Origin: Ignavibacteriota bacterium
GTDB taxonomy: Bacteria > Bacteroidota > Ignavibacteria > Kapaibacteriales > UBA2268
NCBI GenBank assembly: GCA_019637995.1
Contig: JAHBUQ010000002.1
Span: 449,428-513,427 of the forward strand
Direction: 5' to 3'
DNA: 64,000 nucleotides
Shown here piece by piece: positions 1,850 through 60,147 of this stretch (positions are counted from its first letter, which is position 1; each line of letters starts with the position of its first letter). The position numbers were made by a program, and so were the translations under genes. The notes under the pieces are model-generated. The model had not been told where the DNA came from and did no database searches. It saw only the letters and a list, made by a program, of their open reading frames with translations.

Positions 1850-4651
1850 TTATATTGATTTAATCTTTTTTACAAGTTCTTCGAAAAGCGGAAGTATTTC
1901 AATCAGACTTTCAATATCTATATTGTCAATGGCACTAATCAGATAATTGGAGTATTCTTTAAAGAAATGTATATTCGTTTTTTCAGAGAACTCAATTATA
2001 TGCTTACCGAAATCTTTGATTTTATCAATTATGAGAGTATTATTTACATCATCCCATTCTTTCATAAGTATTTTAGTAAGATAAAGATAAGAGTTTTTTT
2101 CTACTTTAGTTTCAGGTATATTAACAAGATTTTGTTTGAATTTTAAAAATGAAAGATAAAAAGGCTCTGATTCGATAATATTTTCAACAGGAACAATAAT
2201 TCTAGAAATCTCTCCAATCAATATATTTTTTGTAAACGGCTTTCTAATATATCCTGTTATCATCAGACGTGTAGTAATCGGGAATGATTCTATCGAAGAA
2301 GCAGTCATTGCAATAATCGGTATATCCTTGGTTGCAGGATTTTCGCTCAGTAGTTTGCTCAGCTCAAAGCCATCTGTTTTCGGAAGTTGCATATCAAGTA
2401 GTATAATGTCAGGCAGTGTTTCGATTGCTTTGTTTATTGCTTTTTCGGCATCACTGATGGATAATATCTCTAAACCTGAATTCTTCAGAAATCCCTTAAC
2501 AATTTCAATATTATCATAATTATCATCAATCACCAATACTTTTTGATTATTAAAGGTAATACCGATAGCGTTTTCAGATTTTGTTTTGCTCTTCACAACA
2601 CTTGAGTCGGAAATTTCGACATTTTTAATAATGAAGCTGAAGCGTGTACCTTTACCAAGCTCGCTTTCTACTTCTATTGAGCCGTTCATCATTTCGACCA
2701 GTCGTTTGGTTATTGGAAGCCCAAGTCCGGTACCGCCGTATTTACGTGCATTTTGTCCTTCAGTCTGCATAAATGGTTCAAATATTCTTTGAATTTGTGA
2801 TTCAGGAATTCCAATACCGCTATCAACAACATTTACTTGTAAATCTCCGGAAATTTCGTTGTTCTTATTAAAATTGACTTCAATTGTAATGCTGCCTTTT
2901 TCAGTAAATTTTACGGCATTACCCATCAAATTAAATAAAATCTGTCTTAATCTTATCTCGTCCAATGCAAGTCCGAGCGGAGTATTTTCGGAAATTCTGG
3001 TTTCAACTTTTAAATTCTTTTCAGTAATTTTAATTATGAATATTTTTATGACTTCTTCACAAAGCTCAGATAAATCCACCGGTTCAGTTTTGATTATCAT
3101 TTTTCCTGCTTCAATTTTCGAGAGGTCGAGTATATCATTAATGAGATTTAGTAGATTAACACCTGCAACCGAAATACCATCAAGATAGTATTCATACTTG
3201 TCAGAATCGAATTTTTTATTTTTTAATAATTCTGAAAAACCTAAAATTGCATTAAGTGGAGTTCGAATTTCATGGCTCATATTTGCAAGGAATTCGCTTT
3301 TTGATTTATTTGCAATTTCGGCAATATTAATTGCTTTTCTTAAATTATCTTCAACTTTCTTCATTTCGCTGACATCAATGACGAAAGTTACTTTTTTGGG
3401 TTTATTGTCAATACCGATTATACGTGCTGCATCAGCAAGAATACTGATTTTATCCCCGTACTTATCTACTACATCCCATTCTCCGCGAATTTCGACATGT
3501 TCGCCTTCGTATATAAATCTATCGTGCAGTTCTTTGAAAAATGAACGAACTTCATCATTTACAACTATAGTAAAATGCTTCCCGAGAAGTTCATCAGGCA
3601 TATATTTATAAATTTTACAATACGCGGGATTTACATATTCGTATAGTCCCTCATCATCTGTAATGCACATACCAATTGGAGTTTTTTCGATGATGCTTCT
3701 GAATCGCCTCTCACTTTCCTGTAGACTTTCGCTTGTTCTTGTTTCGCTTGTAATATCTTCAAGTGTAATGATATAGCCACTGTTGATATTTGTAGCATCA
3801 ATTAATTTATCGGACTTGAAATTGATAGTCAGTACTTCATCAAACTTGGTTTTTATTTGAAGCCCCTGTAGCTTACCTTTATTTATAATATCCTCAAACA
3901 GAACTTTTTCTTCAAAATTAAATTTTAACACTTCATAAATATATTTTCTGAGGACTTCTTCTTCAGTATAACCGATTATAGTTTCAGCTTTAGGATTCCA
4001 AGATTTTATTCTTAGCTTTTCGTCAAGAGTTATCAGAGCAACAGGAACATGCCTGTAAATGAGTTCGAGGCGATTTTTTTCTGAGAATAATTCCAGTTCG
4101 GTATTTTTTTGCTTGCTGATGTCAGTTATTGAAATACTTATAATCTCATCTGAAGAAGTGTTCTTGTTTCTTACACCGTCCATTTGACAATAAAATTCAC
4201 TTCCATTAGAATTTTTTATCATTATTTCGACAGATTGCCTCAAGTTTTTTTCAAGTAAATCATTATAAAATATGTAGAAGTCATCCTGAGATTTTTTTGA
4301 AATATAATCGGTTATACTTTTACCTGTTGCTTTGGGTTTATCTGTTGCAAATATCTGACATCCTGTTTGATTTATTCTCAAAATCTTTTTATTCTCATCC
4401 AGAGTAATATAACCAATTGGAGCAAAGTCATATAACTCAATATATTTATCACTTGAGAACTGCAAATTATCACGTGTATTAGTGAGTTCTTCATGCTGTA
4501 ATTCGAGCTCAATCTGATACACTTCAAGATCGTGCAGGAGTTTGCTCAGGTCATAATTTTTATAATCATCAGGATCGGACTTCTTTGCAGTCATAAGCTT
4601 TTCAGCTTTTTCCCTTATTTCGTCGAATATATTTATTTTACTTTTTTTCAT
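1850..4651 (-). CDS. PAS-domain hybrid sensor histidine kinase with receiver domain
   Basis: Signal-transduction kinase, apparently cytoplasmic: no membrane segment is visible. Order: helical N-terminus, three PAS-like domains (about 65-180, 190-305, 312-435), HisKA with phospho-acceptor His460 in FLANMSHEIRTPLNAILGFS, HATPase with N-box (LMGNAVKF, 575-582), G1 DSGIGIP (610-616) and G2 GGTGLGL (639-645), then a receiver domain with acidic pair Asp709/710, phospho-acceptor Asp753 in LLDMQLP and Lys804. The last roughly 110 residues are helical and look like an HPt-type bundle, but I see no HxxKG phospho-site. It starts 11 bp after the CheB-CheR gene, so they form one operon. The ligand is unknown; the output is presumably another receiver elsewhere. 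Confidence 0.92.
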   Translation of the reverse strand: MKKSKINIFDEIREKAEKLMTAKKSDPDDYKNYDLSKLLHDLEVYQIELELQHEELTNTRDNLQFSSDKYIELYDFAPIGYITLDENKKILRINQTGCQIFATDKPKATGKSITDYISKKSQDDFYIFYNDLLEKNLRQSVEIMIKNSNGSEFYCQMDGVRNKNTSSDEIISISITDISKQKNTELELFSEKNRLELIYRHVPVALITLDEKLRIKSWNPKAETIIGYTEEEVLRKYIYEVLKFNFEEKVLFEDIINKGKLQGLQIKTKFDEVLTINFKSDKLIDATNINSGYIITLEDITSETRTSESLQESERRFRSIIEKTPIGMCITDDEGLYEYVNPAYCKIYKYMPDELLGKHFTIVVNDEVRSFFKELHDRFIYEGEHVEIRGEWDVVDKYGDKISILADAARIIGIDNKPKKVTFVIDVSEMKKVEDNLRKAINIAEIANKSKSEFLANMSHEIRTPLNAILGFSELLKNKKFDSDKYEYYLDGISVAGVNLLNLINDILDLSKIEAGKMIIKTEPVDLSELCEEVIKIFIIKITEKNLKVETRISENTPLGLALDEIRLRQILFNLMGNAVKFTEKGSITIEVNFNKNNEISGDLQVNVVDSGIGIPESQIQRIFEPFMQTEGQNARKYGGTGLGLPITKRLVEMMNGSIEVESELGKGTRFSFIIKNVEISDSSVVKSKTKSENAIGITFNNQKVLVIDDNYDNIEIVKGFLKNSGLEILSISDAEKAINKAIETLPDIILLDMQLPKTDGFELSKLLSENPATKDIPIIAMTASSIESFPITTRLMITGYIRKPFTKNILIGEISRIIVPVENIIESEPFYLSFLKFKQNLVNIPETKVEKNSYLYLTKILMKEWDDVNNTLIIDKIKDFGKHIIEFSEKTNIHFFKEYSNYLISAIDNIDIESLIEILPLFEELVKKIKSI

Positions 4652-4662
4652 CAGTTACCAAA

Positions 4663-7611
4663 TCAGTACTCTACAAATGAAATTAAAACGGCTTCAATAT
4701 TGTTATTTATGTCAAACATTGGCGAGGCATTAACAAGAAGTGATTTTACTACATCATTTTTGAATTTCATTTTAAGTAGTTTGTTATTGATAACAGCGTT
4801 ATTTTTCATAACGTAATTAAAAGGAAAATCTTCTTCTTTCATTCTTGATCCATCTTCATAACATACAACGAATTTGGGATCGTTGTATTTTTTCCCTTTT
4901 AATTCTGATGGACTCAGTTCAAGAATTTCCACTGCCTTTTTATTTGCATAAGATATTTTGCCGTTGGCATCATGCATTACTTTTGCATTTGGACTATTTT
5001 CCAAAATTCTTGATAAAAATTCATTATCACGTCTGATTTGAAGTTCATAGCTCTTGATTTTATCAATATCTATAAAAGTAATCACAATGCCTTTTATTGC
5101 ATTTTCCACTGTTCGATATGGTAATACTTTTAGCAAAAACCACTTTTCGTCAGTTGATTTTAGCTCGATTTCAAATGGATTCAGAGTTTTTAAAACCAGA
5201 TTAATCTGATTAATAAATTCGTTATATACGAAGTTATAAGAGATATGGCTTATAGGTCTTCCTATATCATCTTCAATCAAATTTACAAAGTATTTGGTAG
5301 CAGGCGTAAATTTACGTATTTTTAGCTTAAGGTCTAAGAAAATAGTACCTATATTTGTTACATTAAACCAGTTATTTATGTCATTATTGAGTTCAGTAAG
5401 TTCCTCAATTTTATTCTGATACTCAGAATTTACCGTATAAAGCTCTTCATTTACCGATTGCAGTTCTTCATTTGTGCTTTGTAGCTCTTCATTGGAAGCA
5501 ATAAGCTCTTCGTTAGTTGCCTGAAGCTCTTCGTTGCTTGTTTCAAGCTCTTCAATTGTTGCCTGAAGGTTCTCTTTAGTATATTTCAATTCACCTTCGA
5601 GGTCAAATAGCCTTTGATTAACATTACTACCGATATCAAATAATTCACTGGTAATAAGACTGTTTTCTGCATTGCCTGTTTCTTCGAAAATAATAAGCAT
5701 CATATTATTTTTAGTCTTATCATGCTTGAACATCTTAACGATTAGATTGAGAGATACGGATTTATCATCTCTCATAAAACTTATATCTTTATATACAATT
5801 TCACCCTGTTCCTTAATTGCTCTATGAATTGCTGTACCAAGAGCTACAGACAGCTCCTGAGGAACCATATTCAAAATATTCAAAGAAACCTTTCCCGAAG
5901 GAAGTTTCATGAATTTATTTGCATCTTTGAAAACGTGAATCAGTTCGTATTTCTCGTTAATGATAATAGAAGGTGGAACGAAATCATTAAATAATTCTTT
6001 ATTGATTGAATCGAGCAAATCTGAGTCCGAATAAATTTTACTTCTCTTATCCTGATGAGCGGGAAACATTTTTATACTCGAATGTGGTAGATGCAAAACA
6101 TCCATTATAGGGTGCAGAATTTTTTCGTTACTTTTGTAAATCTTCCATTTATTGTCAATTACATTGAAGTAGCTGGATAGTTCACCTATTGATTCGCTCG
6201 AACCCAAAAACAGAATACCTCCGTTGCTTAGTGAAAAGCCAAATGAAGATAATACTTTTTTTTGCATAACCGGTTGAAAGTAAATCAACAGATTGCGACA
6301 ACTAACAAGGTCAATTTTTGAAAATGGAGGGTCTTTTATTAAATTATGAGTTGCAAAAATGACCATTTGTCTGATTGAATCAACAACTTTGAATGTCGAG
6401 CCGTTCTTAGTAAAATATTTACGCAGATGATCTTCGCTAATATCTGTTACTATACTTTCGGGATATGTGCCCATACTTGCATATTCGATAGCATCTTTGT
6501 CAATATCTGTAGCGAAAATCTTAATATCATATTCTCTTTCAATCAGGTTCATGTACTCTCTTAATAATATTGCAAGCGTATATGCCTCTTCGCCGGTCGA
6601 GCAACCCGGCACCCAAACCCTGATACTTTCACCAACTACTTTACTTTCAAATAAACGAGGAATTACTTTTTCTTTAACAAGCTCAAATGCTTCTGAGTCT
6701 CTAAAAAACTTAGTAACTCCAATCAGAAGTTCTTTATAAAGGACATTCACCTCAGTAGGTGAATCGCTAACAAGTCTGTAGTAATCCTCAATATCAGGAA
6801 TATGATGAACGCTGCTTCTTCTTTCTATTCTTCTTACAATTGTATTTGGCTTATAGTATGTGAAATCAACACCTGTGCGAGCGCGAATAGCTAATAGTAT
6901 TTTTGAAATCACATCATTTTCTTCAATGTCAATATCAAGTTTTTTGTCTGAAGCTTTAAGAAATGGATGTTCAACATACTTCAAAAGTTGCTCACCCATT
7001 CTATACGGAGGTAGAATATAATCCACAAGACCTGTAGCTATTGCACTTTTTGGCATTCCGTCGAATTTGGCAGTTTCTTCATCCTGCACCATAACCATAC
7101 CACCAGCACCTTTAATTGCTCTTATTCCAAGTGTACCATCGCTTCCTGTACCCGAAAGCACTATGCCGATTGAACGCTCGGCAAGGTCTTCAGCCAGCGA
7201 CCTAAGAAAAATATCTATCGGAAGGTTAAGGCCAAGATTAAGTGATTGGTCTGTCAAATATAACTTACGGTGAAATATTGTGAGATTTTTTTTGGGAGGT
7301 ATTAAGTATATTGAATTTTTCTGTACCTTCATTCCGTCTTCTGCGCGGTAAATCGGTATTGATGTATGCTTACCGAGAAGCTCAACCATCAGGCTTTTAT
7401 AATCAGGTGATAAATGCTGAACCACTACATAACCCAGTCCACTATCCGGTTTAATATTCTTAAAGAATTGCTCTAAAGCTTCAAGACCGCCCGCCGAAGC
7501 ACCTACTCCGGCAATTGGGAAGTTGTCGTCGTTATAGTAATTCTGTTCTGATACATCATTTGTTTTTATATATTTATTACCAAGATCAATTTTCTTACTT
7601 TTTGAAGGCAT
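4663..7611 (-). CDS. CheB-CheR fusion with coiled coil and PAS domains
   Basis: A 982-residue fusion of protein-glutamate methylesterase and methyltransferase modules with a sensory C-terminus. The CheB domain (about 31-215) has the catalytic triad Ser39 in GASAGG, His66 in VQHLSPD and Asp158 in GTGSDGTLG, but no N-terminal receiver. The CheR domain (about 235-495) has the SAM loop VWVPGCSTGEEAYT at 332-345. Next come a PAS-like region (about 540-645), a striking coiled coil of EELxxxN heptads (about 666-748) and two PAS domains (750-860, 868-982). ATG at 7611 follows AGGA. There is no chemoreceptor, CheA or CheW nearby, so methylation of something other than a classical MCP, or a role with the adjoining hybrid kinase, is more likely. 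Families of this design are known; their substrates mostly are not. Confidence 0.93.
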   Translation of the reverse strand: MPSKSKKIDLGNKYIKTNDVSEQNYYNDDNFPIAGVGASAGGLEALEQFFKNIKPDSGLGYVVVQHLSPDYKSLMVELLGKHTSIPIYRAEDGMKVQKNSIYLIPPKKNLTIFHRKLYLTDQSLNLGLNLPIDIFLRSLAEDLAERSIGIVLSGTGSDGTLGIRAIKGAGGMVMVQDEETAKFDGMPKSAIATGLVDYILPPYRMGEQLLKYVEHPFLKASDKKLDIDIEENDVISKILLAIRARTGVDFTYYKPNTIVRRIERRSSVHHIPDIEDYYRLVSDSPTEVNVLYKELLIGVTKFFRDSEAFELVKEKVIPRLFESKVVGESIRVWVPGCSTGEEAYTLAILLREYMNLIEREYDIKIFATDIDKDAIEYASMGTYPESIVTDISEDHLRKYFTKNGSTFKVVDSIRQMVIFATHNLIKDPPFSKIDLVSCRNLLIYFQPVMQKKVLSSFGFSLSNGGILFLGSSESIGELSSYFNVIDNKWKIYKSNEKILHPIMDVLHLPHSSIKMFPAHQDKRSKIYSDSDLLDSINKELFNDFVPPSIIINEKYELIHVFKDANKFMKLPSGKVSLNILNMVPQELSVALGTAIHRAIKEQGEIVYKDISFMRDDKSVSLNLIVKMFKHDKTKNNMMLIIFEETGNAENSLITSELFDIGSNVNQRLFDLEGELKYTKENLQATIEELETSNEELQATNEELIASNEELQSTNEELQSVNEELYTVNSEYQNKIEELTELNNDINNWFNVTNIGTIFLDLKLKIRKFTPATKYFVNLIEDDIGRPISHISYNFVYNEFINQINLVLKTLNPFEIELKSTDEKWFLLKVLPYRTVENAIKGIVITFIDIDKIKSYELQIRRDNEFLSRILENSPNAKVMHDANGKISYANKKAVEILELSPSELKGKKYNDPKFVVCYEDGSRMKEEDFPFNYVMKNNAVINNKLLKMKFKNDVVKSLLVNASPMFDINNNIEAVLISFVEY

Positions 7612-7852: not shown

Positions 7853-10800
7853 TCAAACCCACCAACGCAAGACGCTCTGCCGGAATAAATCCAACAGAGC
7901 GTCTGCCTATTAGTCGTCTCAGCACCTGAATTAATCAGGTCTAAGCATTTGGGTTATTTTACTACGTTGACGTTGCTTATAAGCATTACATCACCGCTGC
8001 GCAATACTACCTGATATACACCACTTGCGAGGTCTTTTGCATCTACGTTAAGTATGTGCTGACCGGCTGTCTGCATGCCGCTGTAAAGTCTTGCAACTTC
8101 TTTGCCGCTTGCATCTACAAGTGTGATTTCCACATTTGCTGACTGGCTCATTGTGTATTCGATTGTACTTTCGCTGCGTACAGGATTTGGTCTTGCCTGT
8201 CCGAGTTCGATTACGCCGCTTAAACCGGTTAGTGTTACTGTGCGTTCGTCACTGTATGAGAAACTGCCGTCACGGTCTAATGCTTTCAAACGGTAGATGT
8301 ATGTCTTGCCGTATTCTACGTTGTTATCTACTACAGGTCCGTAGTTTAATGTTACTGAGCTGTTGCCTGCTGCTTCCATTTCTGCTATCTTAGTAAAGAA
8401 GTTGCTACCCTGAGCTGCTTTCTCTACTTCGAAGCGGGATGTATTTAGCTCGCTTGCTGTTGCCCAGCTGATATCTACTCTCTTGCCGGCTGCTTTTGCA
8501 TCGAAGCTTAAGAGTTCTACAGGTACAACTGTACCGTCGTTTCTTTCCATAAAGTCGAAGCTGGCACGAAGTACTGTTTCGATATCTGCAAAGTGACGCC
8601 AGTCTATACCAAGATATACTACGTTTGAAGTAAGTGTTGTAGTTGCAATACCGCCGATTCTTGCTGCATCCGGCCATTCAGGGTTCTGTACGCTGTTGTA
8701 ACGGAATGCCATCTGGCTGATACCGTTTCCGGTATTGACGATGTTCATTAATGCAGGCTGTGGATACATATCTCCGGCTACGCCTGTTGCCATTACTTCC
8801 ATTACTACATCACGTCCTACTGCTATACCTGTTACATTACGACCGCTGTAGTTGCTGCCTGCTCCAAGTGGATTACCTGGATGACGGTATTCTCCACGAA
8901 GGATGTTGGTTACATATACTTCGTCTGCATCGTCTATGTTGACGTTGTTTCTTACCATTTCTTCACTGCCGATAAGAAGGTTTTTCTTCTCTGATACATT
9001 ACCTGCTTCTACGAAGTTTGTGAGATTGAGTTTTTCAAGACGGCTTAATGTCTTGTTGTGACCATCTGACCAAATCATTGAACGATAAATTGTATAGTCT
9101 ACGTTGCGTGGTTCCCAGCCATAACGGTTGAATAAGTCAAAGTCGTAACGTGCTGCTATAAGGTCGATTTCCCAGTTAAGCTGCTTCATACCTTCTTTGA
9201 TTTGTTCGTAGTTTAAGCCATAAGCAAGTTCATCTGCTGTTGGTGTTACGCCCGCTGCAAAGTGCTGCTGGTTGCTGACCAAGAAACGGATACCACTGCG
9301 CTGTATATAGAAACGTGAGATCTTTTCTGTTGCGTTGTTTGAGTTGAACTCATCAGGATCTGTACTTACTACTATACGGTAGCGTGGAGTTACGTTTGCT
9401 TCCATTCCGAGGAACTGTGAAGGTACGGAATAGTTCTGGTTGCGTAAGTCGTTGTATGTTTCAGGTACGAAGTCATTGCCGATACCGTCACCGATATTGA
9501 AGCTGACTTCCAGGTTTTCTGTTGCATCTAAGTCTATTTGACGCTCTACTGGACCAAATGCTAAGGCAAATGTTCCGTTTGGCATTTCGCGATAGATGTT
9601 GACATAAAGTTTCTTGTTGAAGACAGGCATATTACCGCTGTTGCGTACTATGGCTTTTACTTCTACAGGAGCTGTGGTCATTAAGTATTCGGCATCGCTG
9701 AACATACCATCTGTTGCACGGTAAGTACCGGGTTCGGTTATTACAAGCATTTCTGCATCGTGGTTGTAAAGTGCACCATTGAATTCTACTGCACCGATGT
9801 CATATCTGCCACCTGCTACACCACGGATATTACCATAAATGTCATGTGTTACTTCGTCTAATCTTTCACCGCGACGGGTTAGGACTGAACCTTTTGTATT
9901 TGTACGCAAACGGATTTCTTCTGGATAGCTACCCATAAAGTAATGGTCATTGATGAAGTTACCGGTTGAGATTGAGTTAAGTTCGCTCTTGGTTGCCATC
10001 TGCCACTGTGTTAAAGTACGGTATTCGTTACGGGCTCCCGTTTCGATTACGCGGGTCTTGAAGTCTGTGTAGATGTGACGGTATGCTGAGATGTTTGCGT
10101 TACCGAACCAGTATGCGTTACGGTCTGCTACAAGACCGTCTTTTTCAGGATAGTCGCCATGATAGAAGATACCTGAAGCTACTTCATTGCCTGCATTTAC
10201 TGTTGCATCATTTACTGCGATTGCATTATTGAGCAAATGTAATCCGCGTGCTTGCTGTATGCCGATACCTGCTACATTTGAGGCATTATTTATACCATCT
10301 TCTGTGATAAGGATTGTATTGTTGGCAATGGTTGAGCTGCGGATGAAGTAGTCTGCATAGTTTGGTGTAATCATACGGGCTACAGGATCTGCTACTTTTA
10401 GGTTACGCTGTGTCAGCATGTGAATACCCGCACGCATTGTATTTGCGTTCTGTGCGTTGAGTTTCCACATTGCATTGTTCATTACATTGATATTGTCTTC
10501 GACAGGAGGGAATACTCTGAATTCTGTTCCCACCTGATATTTGTTGGCGTTCTGATCTACTAAGATACCATATACTGCCTGGTTACCGCGTACGTTGTGG
10601 ATTGCGTTTCCGTCAATATTGAGGTCATAGTTATTGTAGCCAAGGAAGTTTTGGGTTGCATTACCACCTGCGATAATACCTGCTGCAAATGCTCCGCCGT
10701 CACCTTTGACATCAAAGATTACGTTGTTCTTTACATTTGCTTTTGCTTCGTTACCTACGACTACACCTGCGCCGGATACGTTGTAAATCTTGTTGCCTTC

Positions 10801-11198
10801 AATTATTGTGTTTTCGTTGTAGAATGGTGCAAAGTCTGCAAGCTGTGGTACGCGGAGTACGCCGATACCGAGTGATACGATGCCGTAGCCAAAGCCGCTG
10901 ATGTCATTGCCCATGAATGTGTTGTTTTTGTTTGTAATTGTATCAAGTGCGATTACAAATGCTTCTGTGTTAAGTGCTAAAAGTTCTGCACGGTTTACGA
11001 TACCTGCGGAATAGCCTACCCAGCCGGTTTCAGTTATTTCTGTGTTTGGGGTAAACAAGAAGCCGTCTACGATTGAGTAATGTGCATTTGGAAGACGTAC
11101 TTTATTGGCTATCGAAAGCTTGTTGTTTTCCATGATGGTGTTCTTCACTGATATGTTCTGTGAACCCGCTCCAAGATAGAATACTGCTCCAAATGCCT
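7853..11198 (-). repeat. long direct repeat, copy A (partner 54284-57629)
   Basis: A block of about 3346 bp recurs at an offset of exactly 46431. It covers the last 1080 codons of the first giant surface gene, its stop codon and about 100 bp of 3' sequence including a hairpin. I found no mismatch in the segments compared by eye, and the translations are identical throughout. The left edge is at TCAAACCC (7853); the first mismatch on the right is G at 11199 versus C at 57630, after which differences become frequent. Confidence 0.95.
7870..7904 (-). terminator. 3' hairpin of the first giant surface gene
   Basis: Perfect 10-bp stem AGACGCTCTG (7870-7879) / CAGAGCGTCT (7895-7904) with a 15-nt loop, 50 nt after the stop codon. 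There is no clean U-tract, only a T/G-rich stretch, so it could act as a terminator or protect the mRNA 3' end. A smaller palindrome ACCTGA/TCAGGT lies at 7924-7940. Both recur unchanged after the second copy. Confidence 0.6.
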
Positions 11199-13725
11199 GC
11201 TGATCTGTATTAAGTACAAAACGGAAGGATTTGTTCGCTCCACCGTCAAATGTGATATAACCACCACTGTTTGAATATGGGACATAGTAGCTGTTACCAA
11301 AGTTTTCAGCCTGAACTGAATATCCATTAGTATTTATAACTGACTGACCGAAGTAAACACCCTGACCATTACCTGAATGCAGGTTAATCTTTACTGAGGC
11401 GCGTGTTACAAGTCTGTCTTCAGCAGGCTTGAATGTCAGTGTCCAGTAATCGCCTGTGTTTTGGTTGTAGCCAAGACCCATAATTGCTGTTGATAAGTCC
11501 CATGCAGGTGCGCCATTGCTGGTGCTGTAAACGTCGTATTCTGCATCTGTGAATTCAAATGTTACTGAACCGTTCATACCGCGAAGGTAGAGCATATCCA
11601 TTGCATCTTGAATTGTAACAAAGTTACGGACGTTGCCTGAGAACTTTGTTCCGATTGTATATTTACCTATAAGACCGCTTGATACTGTAAACTGATGTGA
11701 ATACTCGTTATTTGAGATTTCAAGGTCATCAGGATGTGATACTATAAGTCTTGCAAGGTACGTACCGGGCTGCATAATTTCTGTTTGCGGGAAGATTACC
11801 TGTTTCAAATTGTAACGACCCTGTGGTATATCTTCTACGTTAACTGTTCTGTCATAGACTACTGTGTTTTCTGGAATCTTAGTTATAATCATTCTTGTTG
11901 GTGCGTTGGATATATCACCCACACCTTCGTTGGAAAGAGTTCCTACAGGGAAGAATGGACGTCCTGCGATGTAGTCAGCGTTAGCTGCAGGAATATTAAT
12001 TGTCTTTGCTGCTGCTTCGATTTCATCTTTAATTGAGAACTGGTATGCAGGCTGATCTTCTCTGCGGAAATAGTCATTATATGATTCCATATCTGTTGCG
12101 CTGCGAAGCTTAACTGTAAGCGTGGCAGTATAATCATCTGTTTGAGTAGTGCTCCAAGTGCCGAAATCAAGATTTACTCTTTGTTTTGCAGCTACTACAT
12201 ACTGACCGAAGTTTACTGTATCCCATTCAATAACTTTTGATACTTTTTTGTTTCCTTTTGAATCATATATATCAAAGTAAGCATCAAATTTTGCTACACC
12301 GCGAAGACCTACGTTCTGAACAGCTGCTTTGAGGTTAAGATTTAAGCCTCTCGGATATTTGTGGAAACGTGGAGGACCGCTTGAAAGTGGTTCAGTGATG
12401 TCAACTGCCGCCATATCCCATTCCCAGGATACTACGAAATTCTTACGTTGGTATTTCATTGCGTTCAAATCCTGACCAAGTCCAAGTACTACTTGATACT
12501 CGCCACCACTTGAGCGTTTGAATCCATAATTATTTACAACAGCAGAACCAGTTGCTCTTTGAATATTAAAGTGTACATTGGTTCCAATTACATCAGTACC
12601 TACTCTGATATTTGATGAATTAGTGACTAAGTCACGACCTTCATATACCACATTATCTACATCAGGAAGTGGACCTACTATTTTATATTGTAAATATGTT
12701 CCCGGAGGAAGTGGCTTGCCAAAAAGTACATAAGGTCTTTCGAAATATGTCATCTGACCGCTTAACATTCTTGTTGTACCGTCATAAGCTTCACCTGCAA
12801 GCAATATATCATCCGGAGCCTGATTGCTTGGGAAAGAGCCTTTGAACGGAAGTGAGAAGTCAATTAAATAATCTTCAATTTCACCATAGTTATAGCCATA
12901 CCAACCGCCATAATATGCTGTATAGTCATAAGCATAACCGTTCCAGCAGGCATTACCGGCTTGATTATAAAGCTGTGCAGCTGTCTGTGTATAAGTTGAA
13001 GGATAATAGTAGGAATGCATAACACGCATACGACCAACACCTGTTTCTTGGTCATCAGGAATAGTAATTTGATATTCAATTGTACGGTCTGTACAATTTG
13101 CAGGAGCCTGATACCAGAAATTAGTTGGAGTACCCGCACCAATTCTTGTTGTCCAGCCTGAATTAATTTTTCCGGGTTGATTTATCCACTCTGTCAAATG
13201 GTCAAAGTGACCATCCATATTAAAATCAATGAAAATACGGTGAGTGTAATATGATGTCCATCCATAAATACAATAGTTTGTACCATTGTAACCATAATAG
13301 TTGTTTTCAACTATGAAACGAATATTATATGTTTCACCCGGAGCCATTTCGCCTCTTGCACCGGTATAAACATAGCAACCTTCCCAAGGACCCATGCCCA
13401 AACCACCGTCAGAATAGCTTTGACGAAGAAGTTTTACCTCGTTTGAACCAACTTCAGTGATTCTAACTTCCTTGATAGGAGTTGTAAAGTAGTAGTCATA
13501 AAAAGTACTGACTGCCTTCAAATATGAAGGATAGCACCATACATCTGTACGACCAAACAATTGCTGGTTTGCACCCATCATTTGGTCATTAGGAATACAG
13601 TAGTTGTCAGGTCCCATGTCCTGAGCCTGCGATGTAACTACATTATAGGACAGCATGATAACAAGAGCTGCCATAAATGCCATTACTTTTCTACCGATTT
13701 GTAATGAATGTTTCATTTTAAACAC
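7954..13725 (-). CDS. giant T9SS-secreted surface protein, copy A (GEVED-like N-domain, beta-helix, T9SS sorting domain)
   Basis: Predicted cell-surface protein of 1923 residues. Signal peptide at about 1-35, cut near TSQA-QD. The N-terminal part (about 36-300) resembles GEVED-type modules: RIFIDFNMDGHFD, the GVGRMRVMH motif, and YGEIEDYLIDF at its end. Ig/CARDB-like beta regions follow to about 690, then a right-handed beta-helix (Asn-rich turns such as NTIIEGNKIYNVSGAGVVVG) to about 1300. A later Rossmann-like region contains DGHNKTLSRLEKLNL and LLIGSEEMV. The end has an FnIII-like domain (VPVELLSFDAKAAGKRVDIS) and a type A T9SS sorting domain (about 1838-1923: PNPVRSESTIEY, SGVYQVVLRSG). 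Residues 844-1923 equal 841-1920 of the second copy, while the N-domain is diverged. No consensus promoter was found just upstream. Function unknown; adhesion or S-layer-like display is inference. Confidence 0.93.
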   Translation of the reverse strand: MFKMKHSLQIGRKVMAFMAALVIMLSYNVVTSQAQDMGPDNYCIPNDQMMGANQQLFGRTDVWCYPSYLKAVSTFYDYYFTTPIKEVRITEVGSNEVKLLRQSYSDGGLGMGPWEGCYVYTGARGEMAPGETYNIRFIVENNYYGYNGTNYCIYGWTSYYTHRIFIDFNMDGHFDHLTEWINQPGKINSGWTTRIGAGTPTNFWYQAPANCTDRTIEYQITIPDDQETGVGRMRVMHSYYYPSTYTQTAAQLYNQAGNACWNGYAYDYTAYYGGWYGYNYGEIEDYLIDFSLPFKGSFPSNQAPDDILLAGEAYDGTTRMLSGQMTYFERPYVLFGKPLPPGTYLQYKIVGPLPDVDNVVYEGRDLVTNSSNIRVGTDVIGTNVHFNIQRATGSAVVNNYGFKRSSGGEYQVVLGLGQDLNAMKYQRKNFVVSWEWDMAAVDITEPLSSGPPRFHKYPRGLNLNLKAAVQNVGLRGVAKFDAYFDIYDSKGNKKVSKVIEWDTVNFGQYVVAAKQRVNLDFGTWSTTQTDDYTATLTVKLRSATDMESYNDYFRREDQPAYQFSIKDEIEAAAKTINIPAANADYIAGRPFFPVGTLSNEGVGDISNAPTRMIITKIPENTVVYDRTVNVEDIPQGRYNLKQVIFPQTEIMQPGTYLARLIVSHPDDLEISNNEYSHQFTVSSGLIGKYTIGTKFSGNVRNFVTIQDAMDMLYLRGMNGSVTFEFTDAEYDVYSTSNGAPAWDLSTAIMGLGYNQNTGDYWTLTFKPAEDRLVTRASVKINLHSGNGQGVYFGQSVINTNGYSVQAENFGNSYYVPYSNSGGYITFDGGANKSFRFVLNTDQQAFGAVFYLGAGSQNISVKNTIMENNKLSIANKVRLPNAHYSIVDGFLFTPNTEITETGWVGYSAGIVNRAELLALNTEAFVIALDTITNKNNTFMGNDISGFGYGIVSLGIGVLRVPQLADFAPFYNENTIIEGNKIYNVSGAGVVVGNEAKANVKNNVIFDVKGDGGAFAAGIIAGGNATQNFLGYNNYDLNIDGNAIHNVRGNQAVYGILVDQNANKYQVGTEFRVFPPVEDNINVMNNAMWKLNAQNANTMRAGIHMLTQRNLKVADPVARMITPNYADYFIRSSTIANNTILITEDGINNASNVAGIGIQQARGLHLLNNAIAVNDATVNAGNEVASGIFYHGDYPEKDGLVADRNAYWFGNANISAYRHIYTDFKTRVIETGARNEYRTLTQWQMATKSELNSISTGNFINDHYFMGSYPEEIRLRTNTKGSVLTRRGERLDEVTHDIYGNIRGVAGGRYDIGAVEFNGALYNHDAEMLVITEPGTYRATDGMFSDAEYLMTTAPVEVKAIVRNSGNMPVFNKKLYVNIYREMPNGTFALAFGPVERQIDLDATENLEVSFNIGDGIGNDFVPETYNDLRNQNYSVPSQFLGMEANVTPRYRIVVSTDPDEFNSNNATEKISRFYIQRSGIRFLVSNQQHFAAGVTPTADELAYGLNYEQIKEGMKQLNWEIDLIAARYDFDLFNRYGWEPRNVDYTIYRSMIWSDGHNKTLSRLEKLNLTNFVEAGNVSEKKNLLIGSEEMVRNNVNIDDADEVYVTNILRGEYRHPGNPLGAGSNYSGRNVTGIAVGRDVVMEVMATGVAGDMYPQPALMNIVNTGNGISQMAFRYNSVQNPEWPDAARIGGIATTTLTSNVVYLGIDWRHFADIETVLRASFDFMERNDGTVVPVELLSFDAKAAGKRVDISWATASELNTSRFEVEKAAQGSNFFTKIAEMEAAGNSSVTLNYGPVVDNNVEYGKTYIYRLKALDRDGSFSYSDERTVTLTGLSGVIELGQARPNPVRSESTIEYTMSQSANVEITLVDASGKEVARLYSGMQTAGQHILNVDAKDLASGVYQVVLRSGDVMLISNVNVVK

Positions 13726-28606: not shown

Positions 28607-29650
28607 TTATGAACCGAAATTCAAGGCAATTGTAAGACGATTGACTAATCCAAGATTAACAGAAGGATTAATTGAATAATCAATTGTACCACCAAAAGCA
28701 CCGCCAAAATATTTCAATCCAACACCGCCGGCTATACCGAAGGAATTCTGACCGAATACATACCCTGCACGTACAGCAAGGAAATCATTCCATACATATT
28801 CTGCACCAAGCATAAATTGCTCAGGTATGTCAGTCAATGTAACAAAATCCGCTGCAGCAAGCAATTTATGTTCATCAGTATCAATAATATCAGTTGTAAC
28901 ACCAGCACGGAAAATTATAGGAAGATTGAATGGATATGCAAGATAAGTTGCATCAAGCGGAGCCATTTCAAGTGATTCTTCGAGTTTTTTTGATGTGCGG
29001 AGGTCAGTACCGTCATATCTCTGCTGAGTAGATAAATTGTGCATAGAGAAGCCGAGCTTAATACCCTGAATACCGGTGTCATATTTTGTACCGATATCAA
29101 AAGCAAAGCCGCTTGCTGCGACTGAAGAAAACGCATTCTGGATATACTTAACAGTTACACCGAATGAAAACTGGTCAGTAAGATATCCTGAAAATGATGC
29201 ACCAACTGATATATCATTAACCTGATAAATTGAACCTGTTCCTTCAGGTCTTTCGACAGTCGTTACGTTAATATCTCCACTTGAGAGACTCACAACACTA
29301 AAAGCTGCTGTATAGCCATCACCAATTGGCATAGCAATAGCACCAAAGTTATGCGAATAAGTCGCAAACCATTGAGTGTATGAAAAATCTGCAGCCATAG
29401 AGCTTACTTCAGCAAGACCGGCAGGATTCCAAAATATTGACGACAAGTCATTAGCAACAGCTCCATAAGCACCACCCATACCGGTTGCACGAGCACCTAC
29501 TGGGATTTTCAGGAACTGACCGCCGGCTGCACCAATTTTAGTAAATTCACCGCCTGAAGCTCCGAATGCACTTAAGTCATCTACCGCTTTCAAATTTAAG
29601 AATGCCAGTGGCATTGTAATTATAACAAGTAATATAAATATTTTTTTCAT
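28607..29650 (-). CDS. PorV/PorQ family outer-membrane protein
   Basis: Outer-membrane barrel of the FadL-related PorV/PorQ family, 347 residues from ATG 29650, which has GGAG 7 nt upstream and begins a signal peptide (MKKIFILLVIITMPLAFLNL); a longer frame upstream lacks a ribosome site. The family N-terminus is clear: GQFLKIPVGARATGMGGAYG followed by AVANDLSSIFWNPAGLA, and SYTQWFATYSHNF. PorV in characterised T9SS shuttles cargo from translocon to attachment complex and PorQ contributes to the attachment complex; which role applies here is inference. It is the last gene of the operon with the 1581-residue protein and TonB-dependent receptor. Confidence 0.88.
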   Translation of the reverse strand: MKKIFILLVIITMPLAFLNLKAVDDLSAFGASGGEFTKIGAAGGQFLKIPVGARATGMGGAYGAVANDLSSIFWNPAGLAEVSSMAADFSYTQWFATYSHNFGAIAMPIGDGYTAAFSVVSLSSGDINVTTVERPEGTGSIYQVNDISVGASFSGYLTDQFSFGVTVKYIQNAFSSVAASGFAFDIGTKYDTGIQGIKLGFSMHNLSTQQRYDGTDLRTSKKLEESLEMAPLDATYLAYPFNLPIIFRAGVTTDIIDTDEHKLLAAADFVTLTDIPEQFMLGAEYVWNDFLAVRAGYVFGQNSFGIAGGVGLKYFGGAFGGTIDYSINPSVNLGLVNRLTIALNFGS

Positions 29651-29677
29651 TTTATTCTCCAAGTTATTATTTGGCAC

Positions 29678-29708
29678 AAGCTGCCTGCTTTTCATCGGCA
29701 GGCAGCTT
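29678..29708 (-). promoter_or_regulatory. GC-rich intra-operon hairpin without U-tract
   Basis: Perfect 11-bp stem AAGCTGCCTGC (29678-29688) / GCAGGCAGCTT (29698-29708), 9-nt loop, between the stop of the 1581-residue gene and the PorV-like start. On the minus strand it is followed by GTGCCAAATAAT, not Ts, so an mRNA-stability or partial attenuation element is more likely than a terminator. Confidence 0.6.
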
Positions 29709-54283: not shown

Positions 54284-57200
54284 TCAAACCCACCAACGCA
54301 AGACGCTCTGCCGGAATAAATCCAACAGAGCGTCTGCCTATTAGTCGTCTCAGCACCTGAATTAATCAGGTCTAAGCATTTGGGTTATTTTACTACGTTG
54401 ACGTTGCTTATAAGCATTACATCACCGCTGCGCAATACTACCTGATATACACCACTTGCGAGGTCTTTTGCATCTACGTTAAGTATGTGCTGACCGGCTG
54501 TCTGCATGCCGCTGTAAAGTCTTGCAACTTCTTTGCCGCTTGCATCTACAAGTGTGATTTCCACATTTGCTGACTGGCTCATTGTGTATTCGATTGTACT
54601 TTCGCTGCGTACAGGATTTGGTCTTGCCTGTCCGAGTTCGATTACGCCGCTTAAACCGGTTAGTGTTACTGTGCGTTCGTCACTGTATGAGAAACTGCCG
54701 TCACGGTCTAATGCTTTCAAACGGTAGATGTATGTCTTGCCGTATTCTACGTTGTTATCTACTACAGGTCCGTAGTTTAATGTTACTGAGCTGTTGCCTG
54801 CTGCTTCCATTTCTGCTATCTTAGTAAAGAAGTTGCTACCCTGAGCTGCTTTCTCTACTTCGAAGCGGGATGTATTTAGCTCGCTTGCTGTTGCCCAGCT
54901 GATATCTACTCTCTTGCCGGCTGCTTTTGCATCGAAGCTTAAGAGTTCTACAGGTACAACTGTACCGTCGTTTCTTTCCATAAAGTCGAAGCTGGCACGA
55001 AGTACTGTTTCGATATCTGCAAAGTGACGCCAGTCTATACCAAGATATACTACGTTTGAAGTAAGTGTTGTAGTTGCAATACCGCCGATTCTTGCTGCAT
55101 CCGGCCATTCAGGGTTCTGTACGCTGTTGTAACGGAATGCCATCTGGCTGATACCGTTTCCGGTATTGACGATGTTCATTAATGCAGGCTGTGGATACAT
55201 ATCTCCGGCTACGCCTGTTGCCATTACTTCCATTACTACATCACGTCCTACTGCTATACCTGTTACATTACGACCGCTGTAGTTGCTGCCTGCTCCAAGT
55301 GGATTACCTGGATGACGGTATTCTCCACGAAGGATGTTGGTTACATATACTTCGTCTGCATCGTCTATGTTGACGTTGTTTCTTACCATTTCTTCACTGC
55401 CGATAAGAAGGTTTTTCTTCTCTGATACATTACCTGCTTCTACGAAGTTTGTGAGATTGAGTTTTTCAAGACGGCTTAATGTCTTGTTGTGACCATCTGA
55501 CCAAATCATTGAACGATAAATTGTATAGTCTACGTTGCGTGGTTCCCAGCCATAACGGTTGAATAAGTCAAAGTCGTAACGTGCTGCTATAAGGTCGATT
55601 TCCCAGTTAAGCTGCTTCATACCTTCTTTGATTTGTTCGTAGTTTAAGCCATAAGCAAGTTCATCTGCTGTTGGTGTTACGCCCGCTGCAAAGTGCTGCT
55701 GGTTGCTGACCAAGAAACGGATACCACTGCGCTGTATATAGAAACGTGAGATCTTTTCTGTTGCGTTGTTTGAGTTGAACTCATCAGGATCTGTACTTAC
55801 TACTATACGGTAGCGTGGAGTTACGTTTGCTTCCATTCCGAGGAACTGTGAAGGTACGGAATAGTTCTGGTTGCGTAAGTCGTTGTATGTTTCAGGTACG
55901 AAGTCATTGCCGATACCGTCACCGATATTGAAGCTGACTTCCAGGTTTTCTGTTGCATCTAAGTCTATTTGACGCTCTACTGGACCAAATGCTAAGGCAA
56001 ATGTTCCGTTTGGCATTTCGCGATAGATGTTGACATAAAGTTTCTTGTTGAAGACAGGCATATTACCGCTGTTGCGTACTATGGCTTTTACTTCTACAGG
56101 AGCTGTGGTCATTAAGTATTCGGCATCGCTGAACATACCATCTGTTGCACGGTAAGTACCGGGTTCGGTTATTACAAGCATTTCTGCATCGTGGTTGTAA
56201 AGTGCACCATTGAATTCTACTGCACCGATGTCATATCTGCCACCTGCTACACCACGGATATTACCATAAATGTCATGTGTTACTTCGTCTAATCTTTCAC
56301 CGCGACGGGTTAGGACTGAACCTTTTGTATTTGTACGCAAACGGATTTCTTCTGGATAGCTACCCATAAAGTAATGGTCATTGATGAAGTTACCGGTTGA
56401 GATTGAGTTAAGTTCGCTCTTGGTTGCCATCTGCCACTGTGTTAAAGTACGGTATTCGTTACGGGCTCCCGTTTCGATTACGCGGGTCTTGAAGTCTGTG
56501 TAGATGTGACGGTATGCTGAGATGTTTGCGTTACCGAACCAGTATGCGTTACGGTCTGCTACAAGACCGTCTTTTTCAGGATAGTCGCCATGATAGAAGA
56601 TACCTGAAGCTACTTCATTGCCTGCATTTACTGTTGCATCATTTACTGCGATTGCATTATTGAGCAAATGTAATCCGCGTGCTTGCTGTATGCCGATACC
56701 TGCTACATTTGAGGCATTATTTATACCATCTTCTGTGATAAGGATTGTATTGTTGGCAATGGTTGAGCTGCGGATGAAGTAGTCTGCATAGTTTGGTGTA
56801 ATCATACGGGCTACAGGATCTGCTACTTTTAGGTTACGCTGTGTCAGCATGTGAATACCCGCACGCATTGTATTTGCGTTCTGTGCGTTGAGTTTCCACA
56901 TTGCATTGTTCATTACATTGATATTGTCTTCGACAGGAGGGAATACTCTGAATTCTGTTCCCACCTGATATTTGTTGGCGTTCTGATCTACTAAGATACC
57001 ATATACTGCCTGGTTACCGCGTACGTTGTGGATTGCGTTTCCGTCAATATTGAGGTCATAGTTATTGTAGCCAAGGAAGTTTTGGGTTGCATTACCACCT
57101 GCGATAATACCTGCTGCAAATGCTCCGCCGTCACCTTTGACATCAAAGATTACGTTGTTCTTTACATTTGCTTTTGCTTCGTTACCTACGACTACACCTG

Positions 57201-57629
57201 CGCCGGATACGTTGTAAATCTTGTTGCCTTCAATTATTGTGTTTTCGTTGTAGAATGGTGCAAAGTCTGCAAGCTGTGGTACGCGGAGTACGCCGATACC
57301 GAGTGATACGATGCCGTAGCCAAAGCCGCTGATGTCATTGCCCATGAATGTGTTGTTTTTGTTTGTAATTGTATCAAGTGCGATTACAAATGCTTCTGTG
57401 TTAAGTGCTAAAAGTTCTGCACGGTTTACGATACCTGCGGAATAGCCTACCCAGCCGGTTTCAGTTATTTCTGTGTTTGGGGTAAACAAGAAGCCGTCTA
57501 CGATTGAGTAATGTGCATTTGGAAGACGTACTTTATTGGCTATCGAAAGCTTGTTGTTTTCCATGATGGTGTTCTTCACTGATATGTTCTGTGAACCCGC
57601 TCCAAGATAGAATACTGCTCCAAATGCCT
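54284..57629 (-). repeat. long direct repeat, copy B (partner 7853-11198)
   Basis: Same block as at 7853-11198, shifted by 46431 bp and in the same orientation. It covers codons 841-1920 of the second giant gene and about 100 bp after the stop. The unique flank to the left (54088-54283) is AT-rich and unrelated to the flank of copy A. Confidence 0.95.
54301..54335 (-). terminator. 3' hairpin of the second giant surface gene
   Basis: Identical to the hairpin at 7870-7904: 10-bp stem AGACGCTCTG/CAGAGCGTCT, 15-nt loop. It lies only 17 bp inside the edge of the duplicated block. Confidence 0.6.
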
Positions 57630-60147
57630 CCTGATCTGTATTCAAAATAAAACGGAAGGATTTGTTAGCGCCACCGTCAAATGTGATATAACCACCACTG
57701 TTTGAATATGGGACATAATATTGGTTGCCAAAGTTCTCGCCTTGTACAGCGTACATATTTGTTGAAAGTACTGACTGACCAAAGTAAACACCCTGACCAT
57801 TACCTGAATGCAGGTTAATCTTTACTGAGGCGCGTGTTACAAGTCTGTCTTCAGAAGGCTTGAATGTCAGTGTCCAGTAATCGCCTGTGTTTTGATTATA
57901 GCCAAGACCCATAATTGCTGTTGATAAGTCCCATGCAGGAGCGCCATTGCTGGTACTGTAAACATCGTATTCTGCATCTGTAAATTCAAATGTTACTGAG
58001 CCGTTCATACCGCGGAGATAGAGCACATCCATTGCATCCTGAATTGTTGCAAAGTTGCGTGCATTGCCAGAGAACTTTGTTCCGATTGTATATTTGCCGA
58101 TAAGTCCGCTTGATACTGTAAACTGATGTGAATACTCGTTGTTTGAGATTTCAAGGTCATCAGGATGTGATACTATGAGTCTTGCAAGGTACGTACCGGG
58201 CTGCATAATTTCTGTTTGCGGGAAGATTACCTGTTTCAAATTGTAACGACCCTGTGGTATATCTTCTACGTTAACTGTTCTGTCATAGACTACTGTGTTT
58301 TCAGGAATCTTAGTGATAATCATTCTTGTTGGTGCGTTGGATATATCACCCACACCTTCGTTGGAAAGAGTTCCTACAGGGAAGAATGGACGTCCTGCTA
58401 TGTAATCACCATTGCTTTCAGGCACGTTAATCGTCTGAGCTGCTGCTTCGATTTCATCTTTGACTGCAAATTCGTATGCAGGCTGATCTTCTCTGCGGAA
58501 ATAGTCATTATATGATTCCATATCTGTTGCGCTACGGAGCTTAACTGTAAGCGTAGCAGTATAAATATCTGTTTGAGTAGTGCTCCAAGTGCCAAAGTCA
58601 AGATTAACTCTTTGTTTTGCAGCTACTACATACTGACCGAAGTTTACTGTATCCCATTCAATAACTTTTGTTATTTTTTTGTTGCCTTTTGAATCGTATA
58701 TATCAAAGTAAGCATCAAATTTAGCTACACCGCGAAGACCTACGTTCTGAACAGCACCTTTAAGATTGAGACTTAAGCCTCTCGGATATTTGTGGAAACG
58801 TGGAGGACCGCTTGAAAGTGGCTCGCTGATATCAACTGCTGCCATATCCCATTCCCAGGATACTACGAAATTCTTTCTCATGAATTTAAGGCTGTTTTCA
58901 TCTTTTCCAAGACCGATGACAAGCTGATATTCACCACCATTAAGCCAACGGAAACCATAGTTGTTTACTACACCGGGTCCTGTTGCTCTTTGAATATTAA
59001 AGTGTACATTGGTTCCAATTACATCAGTACCTACTCTAATATTTTTTAGATTGGTTGCTAAGTCACGACCTTCATATATAACGTTATCTACATCAGGAAG
59101 TGGACCTACAATAGCATAGTTAAGAATTGAACCCGGAGGCATTGGATTTCCAAAAAGAACATAAGGTCTTTCGAAATATGTCATCTGACCGCTTAACATT
59201 CTTGTTGTACCGTCATAAGCTTCACCTGCAAGTAATATATCATCAGGAGCAATGTTATTAGGGAATGAACCTTTTAATGGAAGCGAGAATTCTACTATAT
59301 AATCCTCAATTTCTCCATAACTGTAACCATAATATTGCGACTGGTCATTCCACCAGGGCCATAAATAACCATTCCAACAAGCACTTCCGGCTGTACCGGG
59401 AAGCATTGGATTAGTATTATTGATTGTAGTAGGAGCATTTATTGAATGCATAACTCTCATTCTGCCTACACCATTTTCCTGGTCGTCAGATACTGTAATT
59501 CTATATGTGTATTTCTGTTCTGTACAGTTTGCTTGCATCATATTTCTCCATGTGAAATTATGACCAATTCTCTGGGTTCTGCCTGAAGAGATTTCCTGAG
59601 GACTGTTTATCCATTCACTGTAACCTGTTGGACTATATTCGAATACCCCATTCAAATTATAGTCAATAAATATACGGTTATTATACCATGAATTCCAGTT
59701 ATAAATGCAGTAATTAGTAGTATTGAATATACCATAATTACGAAGACCTATCATTTCGATGTCATAAGTTTCACCCGGTGACATTTCAAAACGAGAATTT
59801 GTAAACACATAACAGCCTTCCCAAGGTCCGTCAACTGCAGTAGCACGACTTATTCTGTGAATTTTAACTTCATTTGAGCCAACTTCTGTAACTTTTACTT
59901 CTAAAATAGGAGAAGTCATGTACTCTTTATAAAAAGTACTAATACTGCTCAAATATGAAGGGTAGCACCAGATATCCGTTCTTCCAAATACTCCTTGATT
60001 TGCAGATGCATATTCCGGTCCGGGAATACAGTAATTGTCAGGACCCATATCCTGAGCATTTGCCACATTCATATTTTGAACGCCGAGCATCAAAATTAAT
60101 GCCCCCAAAAATGAAGCAAAATACTTTAATGTAGATTTTTTAAACAT
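54385..60147 (-). CDS. giant T9SS-secreted surface protein, copy B
   Basis: Paralogue of the protein at 7954-13725, 1920 residues, with the same plan: signal peptide (1-31, ending NVANA-Q), GEVED-like N-domain (RIFIDYNLNGVFEYS, ENGVGRMRVMHSI, YGEIEDYIVEFSLP), beta regions, beta-helix, Rossmann-like region, FnIII-like domain and type A T9SS sorting domain. Residues 841-1920 are identical to copy A. Residues 300-840 differ at scattered positions (for example KPLPPGTYLQYKIV versus NPMPPGSILNYAIV), and the first 300 differ widely with small insertions and deletions. AGGAAT precedes the ATG, and a consensus promoter lies at 60178-60210. Cotranscription with the Wzi-like gene is unlikely given the hairpin and gap. 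Confidence 0.93.
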   Translation of the reverse strand: MFKKSTLKYFASFLGALILMLGVQNMNVANAQDMGPDNYCIPGPEYASANQGVFGRTDIWCYPSYLSSISTFYKEYMTSPILEVKVTEVGSNEVKIHRISRATAVDGPWEGCYVFTNSRFEMSPGETYDIEMIGLRNYGIFNTTNYCIYNWNSWYNNRIFIDYNLNGVFEYSPTGYSEWINSPQEISSGRTQRIGHNFTWRNMMQANCTEQKYTYRITVSDDQENGVGRMRVMHSINAPTTINNTNPMLPGTAGSACWNGYLWPWWNDQSQYYGYSYGEIEDYIVEFSLPLKGSFPNNIAPDDILLAGEAYDGTTRMLSGQMTYFERPYVLFGNPMPPGSILNYAIVGPLPDVDNVIYEGRDLATNLKNIRVGTDVIGTNVHFNIQRATGPGVVNNYGFRWLNGGEYQLVIGLGKDENSLKFMRKNFVVSWEWDMAAVDISEPLSSGPPRFHKYPRGLSLNLKGAVQNVGLRGVAKFDAYFDIYDSKGNKKITKVIEWDTVNFGQYVVAAKQRVNLDFGTWSTTQTDIYTATLTVKLRSATDMESYNDYFRREDQPAYEFAVKDEIEAAAQTINVPESNGDYIAGRPFFPVGTLSNEGVGDISNAPTRMIITKIPENTVVYDRTVNVEDIPQGRYNLKQVIFPQTEIMQPGTYLARLIVSHPDDLEISNNEYSHQFTVSSGLIGKYTIGTKFSGNARNFATIQDAMDVLYLRGMNGSVTFEFTDAEYDVYSTSNGAPAWDLSTAIMGLGYNQNTGDYWTLTFKPSEDRLVTRASVKINLHSGNGQGVYFGQSVLSTNMYAVQGENFGNQYYVPYSNSGGYITFDGGANKSFRFILNTDQEAFGAVFYLGAGSQNISVKNTIMENNKLSIANKVRLPNAHYSIVDGFLFTPNTEITETGWVGYSAGIVNRAELLALNTEAFVIALDTITNKNNTFMGNDISGFGYGIVSLGIGVLRVPQLADFAPFYNENTIIEGNKIYNVSGAGVVVGNEAKANVKNNVIFDVKGDGGAFAAGIIAGGNATQNFLGYNNYDLNIDGNAIHNVRGNQAVYGILVDQNANKYQVGTEFRVFPPVEDNINVMNNAMWKLNAQNANTMRAGIHMLTQRNLKVADPVARMITPNYADYFIRSSTIANNTILITEDGINNASNVAGIGIQQARGLHLLNNAIAVNDATVNAGNEVASGIFYHGDYPEKDGLVADRNAYWFGNANISAYRHIYTDFKTRVIETGARNEYRTLTQWQMATKSELNSISTGNFINDHYFMGSYPEEIRLRTNTKGSVLTRRGERLDEVTHDIYGNIRGVAGGRYDIGAVEFNGALYNHDAEMLVITEPGTYRATDGMFSDAEYLMTTAPVEVKAIVRNSGNMPVFNKKLYVNIYREMPNGTFALAFGPVERQIDLDATENLEVSFNIGDGIGNDFVPETYNDLRNQNYSVPSQFLGMEANVTPRYRIVVSTDPDEFNSNNATEKISRFYIQRSGIRFLVSNQQHFAAGVTPTADELAYGLNYEQIKEGMKQLNWEIDLIAARYDFDLFNRYGWEPRNVDYTIYRSMIWSDGHNKTLSRLEKLNLTNFVEAGNVSEKKNLLIGSEEMVRNNVNIDDADEVYVTNILRGEYRHPGNPLGAGSNYSGRNVTGIAVGRDVVMEVMATGVAGDMYPQPALMNIVNTGNGISQMAFRYNSVQNPEWPDAARIGGIATTTLTSNVVYLGIDWRHFADIETVLRASFDFMERNDGTVVPVELLSFDAKAAGKRVDISWATASELNTSRFEVEKAAQGSNFFTKIAEMEAAGNSSVTLNYGPVVDNNVEYGKTYIYRLKALDRDGSFSYSDERTVTLTGLSGVIELGQARPNPVRSESTIEYTMSQSANVEITLVDASGKEVARLYSGMQTAGQHILNVDAKDLASGVYQVVLRSGDVMLISNVNVVK

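Follow-up and report, generated by a model that had tools for sequence, protein, structure and literature searches.

How can two paralogous genes of one genome be identical to the last letter at their 3′ ends and near synonymous saturation at their 5′ ends? The question is raised by genes A and B, which lie in the same orientation with 41 kb between them on one contig, within a window of 64,000 nucleotides (the whole stretch of DNA analysed, to which the coordinates below refer). The window comes from a genome of 3.92 Mb in six contigs (G000; other genomes are labelled likewise), and relatives of the two genes occur in MAGs of Kapabacteria and Ignavibacteria.

Architecture of the A and B proteins

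Gene A (1923 aa; 7954..13725, minus strand) comprises, according to its ORF, domain matches and structure models, a GEVED head, an Ig-like stalk, a beta-helix, a tail and a T9SS type A sorting domain. Its paralogue B (1920 aa; 54385..60147, minus strand) was delimited by ORF and domains, and at the start of each a signal peptide was recognised by eye. The first-pass annotation, made from the DNA letters alone, had named a GEVED-like domain at the N-terminus, and this was borne out by PF20009, which exceeded its cut-off of 24.4 bits both in A (12862..13239, minus strand, 36.6 bits) and in B (59293..59676, minus strand, 32.0 bits). At the other end, the type A sorting domain TIGR04183 (cut-off 23) scored 28.0 bits in A (7990..8190, minus strand) and 30.8 bits in B (54421..54621, minus strand), and the sorting domain PF18962 was also above its cut-off of 27 (A 28.7, B 31.1 bits). 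The host genome encodes parts of the T9SS core, with a SprA-family match (TIGR04189, 735.8 bits) and four loci above cut-off for the PorV family NF033709. Sorting domain and host T9SS parts together make A and B predicted T9SS type A cargo and putative surface proteins.

The AlphaFold model of the N-terminal part of A (pLDDT 79, pTM 0.47) is an Ig-like array that includes a CARDB-like domain, its head part being of low confidence, and that of the C-terminal part (pLDDT 86, pTM 0.74) is a right-handed beta-helix followed by a mixed tail. Alignment with VIA-align matched residues 567-682 to a CARDB domain (Z 12.4) and the right-handed beta-helix, at about 730-1255, to alginate epimerase/lyase (Z 25.1) and to the adhesin PfbA (Z 21.2); the likeness to alginate epimerase/lyase is one of modelled fold, from which no enzymatic claim is drawn. 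Foldseek searches with the whole N and C models gave generic Ig-like or multidomain matches only.

Between A and B lies a PorV/PorQ-family gene (28607-29695, minus strand; NF033709, 178.7 bits), adjoined by a 1581-aa ORF (29720-34465) with no Pfam or NCBIfam match. Directly downstream of A (1850-7611, minus strand) are two large sensory genes, one for a hybrid histidine kinase of PAS type and one for a CheB/CheR-like protein, both named by eye.

Divergence along the two genes

A and B match exactly over 3,346 bp, in a block that opens at codon 844 and runs on for 101 bp after the stop codon (A, 7853..11198; B, 54284..57629; both minus strand); the last codon to differ is A codon 843 (11197-11199). 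The first-pass annotation had placed the edge of complete identity at 11199 in A and 57630 in B, and had described the same pattern in B at 57630-60147, in agreement with these limits. None of 1,042 degenerate codons encoding the same residue differed within the identical part, an outcome with p ~10^-82 if changes were as frequent there as in the middle region. Past the stop codon the block includes a GC-rich 10-bp inverted repeat (7870..7904, minus strand, read by eye), which is not among the listed terminators; A/B identity ceases ~17 bp beyond it.

Synonymous divergence (NG86) was not uniform along the gene, falling from ~2.07 in the heads, near saturation (dN 0.38, dN/dS ~0.19), to 0.41 in the first 320 codons of the middle zone (dN 0.085), 0.33 in the next 225 (dN 0.032) and 0 in the C-terminal part (synonymous differences at 0/720 sites). 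The middle zone, codons 301-843 of A (11197..12825, minus strand) and the corresponding part of B (57628..59256, minus strand), is a mosaic of patches of different age, with dS from 0.06 to >2 per 50 codons. Scattered changes had been reported through about codons 300-842; they proved to be clustered and not simply scattered, in that the longest run of identity spanned 41 codons where 19 were expected (p 0.0014) and variance computed per 50 codons pointed the same way (p 0.0002). Clustering was weak on synonymous codons alone (p 0.037 and 0.073).

The heads occupy codons 36-300 in A (12826..13620, minus strand) and 33-297 in B (59257..60051, minus strand). Of the flanking parts that had been called similar, the start of the mature protein is so, being conserved from DMGPDNYCIP, whereas the signal peptides are not (dS 0.65 and dN 0.65 over 30 codons).

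A sister species of the same genus, G001, provided a yardstick, carrying one copy of the A/B type (72%) with one head; the window genes and the G001 contig with this copy had no common neighbours except generic kinase and transporter matches. Differences at four-fold sites between A and G001 were equal in head, middle and stalk (0.47, 0.46 and 0.48), so that mutation is no faster in one part of the gene than in another, whereas between A and B they were 0.57, 0.18 and 0.00. It follows that the A and B heads date back to about the species split or beyond it; outside the heads, A and B have been made alike since that split. Amino acid comparison gave the same contrast: head identity was 0.70 for A and G001 versus 0.58 for A and B, while stalk identity was 0.88-1.00 for A and B versus 0.68-0.76 for A and G001 up to the sorting domain. 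Alternative branchings of the A, B and G001 heads were not told apart by the head tree (AU p 0.47 and 0.41). We consider it very probable that A and B are old paralogues whose 3′ parts have repeatedly been copied between them by ectopic gene conversion, that is, by homologous recombination, and that the steps do not stem from a hypervariable head.

A third gene donating matching N-terminal segments had been named as something to look for; genome searches using the entire protein, or the B head by itself, recovered the heads of A and B only. A third paralogue (G000:C2:1108484), 39% identical, aligns from residue 328 on only.

In antigenic variation of the cassette type, as in pilE/pilS or vlsE, silent copies of the variable part act as donors. 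The variable end on a constant body seen in A and B is in keeping with an expressed copy supplied by silent head donors, yet such a system is most improbable here, given that the B-head search found no third head in the window genome at E up to 10, that the matches of the whole-protein search included no head-only fragment, and that A and B are both full open frames.

More weight, though still well short of an even chance, is due to diversifying selection on the heads as what drives the pattern, conversion doing no more than tidy up elsewhere. The B head is accelerated, with 35 unique changes against 8 in the A head (Tajima's test, outgroup G093, p 4e-5), and in the theory described in PMC3924837 a divergence peak under conversion marks selection; to this extent the selection for head diversity suggested in the first-pass annotation is favoured. 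Against it stand the dN/dS of the heads and the pace of the A head between species, which is that of the stalk (dN 0.22-0.24, stalk mostly 0.17-0.34); A and G001 heads had 15 and 19 unique changes (Tajima's test, p 0.49). Nor were the A-B head changes in excess outside predicted strands (43/98 versus 70/164, p 0.90, on a head model of low confidence), where a concentration in exposed loops had been looked for. Acceleration is confined to the B head, and the heads as a class are not sped up, although selection may hold the A and B heads apart.

Recurrence of concerted 3′ parts across the order

The stalk was present, at E up to 1e-90, in 66 of the 103 genomes of the order that were searched. 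In-genome copies were compared in 41 genomes (20 + 10 + 11), a fetched subset of the multi-copy genomes, of which one (G026) had no informative overlap. Exact in-genome runs of at least 1 kb were found in 6/41 genomes. The run in the window genome is 3,242 nt (coding); that in G037 (KatS3mg040) is 1,788 nt, its copies lying on opposite strands 1.80 Mb apart in a single contig of 2.19 Mb. Single-contig G045 has four copies within 24 kb, with exact runs up to 1,965 nt and some divergence left in patches (dS 0.01-0.23). The complete genome Ch6 has two copies ~110 kb apart on opposite strands, with a run of 1,562 nt; ZLKRG19 has tandem copies with a run of 4,053 nt; and two contigs of JAGXRP (G092) start with the same 1,164 nt. 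One of the four tandem copies in G045 (L064, G045:C1:1134115-1139201) is split into ORFs of 737 and 1234 aa, being either a pseudogene or a sequencing error. The open frame of the second Ch6 copy (L111) is only 1441 aa, although homology continues upstream of that frame as far as query residue 307, so that a frameshift or a premature stop codon is suspected.

In the five of these six genomes that have whole genes visible, identity extended to the 3′ end, or almost so, and faded 5′-ward. Its border differed between genomes, at ~codon 470 in ZLKRG19 (own numbering), 843 in the window and 1,200 in Ch6, where identity steps sharply from ~60% to 100% and the two tails are identical; G088 and G010 also have a step at ~codon 1,200, and in G088 dS is graded there, from 1.1 to 0.1.

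Both contigs end inside the gene on the same 127-141 nt in 4/9 further assemblies (G010, G046, G055 and G088), as would be expected of an assembler meeting identical tails. Breaks at identical tails were rejected for G039, G044, G048 and G058, in which no terminal run was common to both contig ends; a direct check of G026 likewise found none.

That assembly or polishing made two truly different tails alike might be thought of for A and B, both copies being on one contig, but the chance of this is very small: the assembly has just six contigs and the repeat is 3.3 kb, the same pattern appears in the single-contig genomes G037, G045 and Ch6, and an artefact would sit poorly with the partial divergence that G045 keeps.

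Trees of 64 rows were built from full or near-full copies only, omitting partial copies (e.g. G010, G013, G035, G039, G044, G046, G048, G055, G058, G071 and G092) and the split fourth copy of G045 and third copy of G083; G026_C20, too short, is absent from one earlier tree. The split between type a (10 rows) and type b paralogues (7 rows) had 100/100 support over codons 480-1150, where each of the six in-genome groupings put to the test was rejected (p at most 6.2e-4). Over codons 1260-1765, in a careful test run without G086_b (identical to G086_a there), it was the a-type clade that was rejected (p-AU 5.9e-5): G008, G011 and G017 clustered by genome with starred support, and the a and b tails of G088 did so unstarred (80/73). 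The tails of G006 and G020 grouped by genome in the quick tree but not in the careful tree, in which this grouping was not rejected either (p 0.436). A 5′ segment that clusters by gene and a 3′ segment that clusters by genome are the two marks of concerted evolution of the homA/homB kind, and both were found in several genera. The exchange outside the head proposed in the first-pass annotation is strongly upheld by a dS that runs from 0 to about 2 along the gene, where a uniform dS would have refuted it, and by this clustering of stalk and tail by genome in several lineages.

Gene-type clustering persisted in both segments in the genera of G016, G019, G033 and G083-G085, in the G001 and G093 pairs, and between A and the third paralogue. 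Because most pairs keep gene-type clustering, homogenisation is lineage-dependent, and concerted tails are common in the order, not universal.

A reverse pattern was seen in G017 (L076, L077), with a/c heads at 0.76 and the rest at 0.49-0.51, and in G016 (L073, L074), with a/b heads at 0.52 and the rest at 0.31-0.42. Since dS is high or saturated in both, it would reflect old head exchange or shared head constraint.

A single recent event that duplicated or transferred just the 3′ part would account for a 3,346-bp block with no internal difference and for the abruptness of the Ch6 step. We regard it as unlikely, given that the middle zone is patchy and of mixed age, that dS in G088 is graded at the very place of the Ch6 border, that clustering by genome arose independently in several genera, and that G088 and Ch6 suggest blocks of differing borders and ages.

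Exchange, separation and known systems

In the account by repeated gene conversion, copying of 3′ parts, its recurrence and its dependence on lineage are matters of observation, and a mechanism can be proposed around them. Conversion would require near-identity, and stretches falling below the homology threshold would be lost to exchange permanently; the border would thereby shift from the head towards the 3′ end with the age of the lineage. Heads would stay apart either because conversions overwriting them are selected against or because pairing is no longer possible, and the head, to judge by domain names and folds, may form the distal part through which an adhesin-like protein binds. Passive escape and favoured head difference give a similar picture, and the head tests do not separate them.

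Recurring 3′ copying lets the tips drift apart with the rest of the protein unchanged. More speculatively, and with little confidence on our part, the homogenised tail could be a self-maintaining recombination island common to Kapabacteria surface proteins whose heads are dissimilar, in which exchange sustains likeness and likeness exchange; it would offer a constant base for heads that evolve or are swapped, the border acting as a clock of head separation. Duplicated surface proteins that are free of conversion at one end and locked at the other form a natural replicate series, of genera rather than strains, and comparison of border positions offers a test of what brings concerted evolution to an end, selection or the loss of homology. 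In Kapabacteria, assemblies from short reads can be interrupted within these genes or can merge them.

A search of open-licence papers found no earlier report of this kind for Kapabacteria or for T9SS proteins of the A/B type; four described systems share parts of it. GEVED was defined in CshA-like adhesins, among which, as described in PMC10952558, the ligand-binding domain NR2 is always followed by GEVED. A and B share with those fibrillar adhesins a GEVED domain near the N-terminus, followed by a long stalk and, at the C-terminus, a surface anchor or sorting domain. A Pfam search at E up to 1 matched no NR2-type domain in A and B, whose head is modelled with low confidence, and the A/B stalk differs in containing a beta-helix.

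For duplicates undergoing conversion, the theory in PMC3924837 expects a peak of divergence where difference is favoured, exemplified there by exon 5 of the red and green opsins, an island of high divergence at a functional site amid low divergence kept by conversion. A and B likewise have a high-divergence island beside parts in which conversion keeps divergence low; the opsins, however, are vertebrate genes, whereas in A and B the island forms one end of the gene, where selection may or may not be at work.

Among T9SS surface proteins, the P. gingivalis genes rgpA, kgp and hagA join different parts to repeats identical between genes, at which automated assembly fails and for which gene conversion has been discussed (PMC5266723). 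They resemble A and B in being T9SS genes with identical shared parts, a likeness by description. They differ in combining protease with adhesin repeats, and their identical parts, as described there, are internal rather than a 3′-anchored beta-helix and tail.

The nearest known kind is that of Helicobacter homA/homB and babA/babB, pairs of surface-protein paralogues with a divergent 5′ part and a concerted 3′ part; in H. pylori the 5′ segment clusters by gene and the 3′ segment by strain, through concerted evolution by intragenomic conversion (PMC2795765). The H. pylori pattern described there lies within a species and concerns outer membrane proteins, whereas A and B are giant proteins of T9SS type, and the Kapabacteria pattern, unlike that of H. 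pylori, is repeated in different genera and families and links paralogues whose heads (types a and b) are dissimilar.
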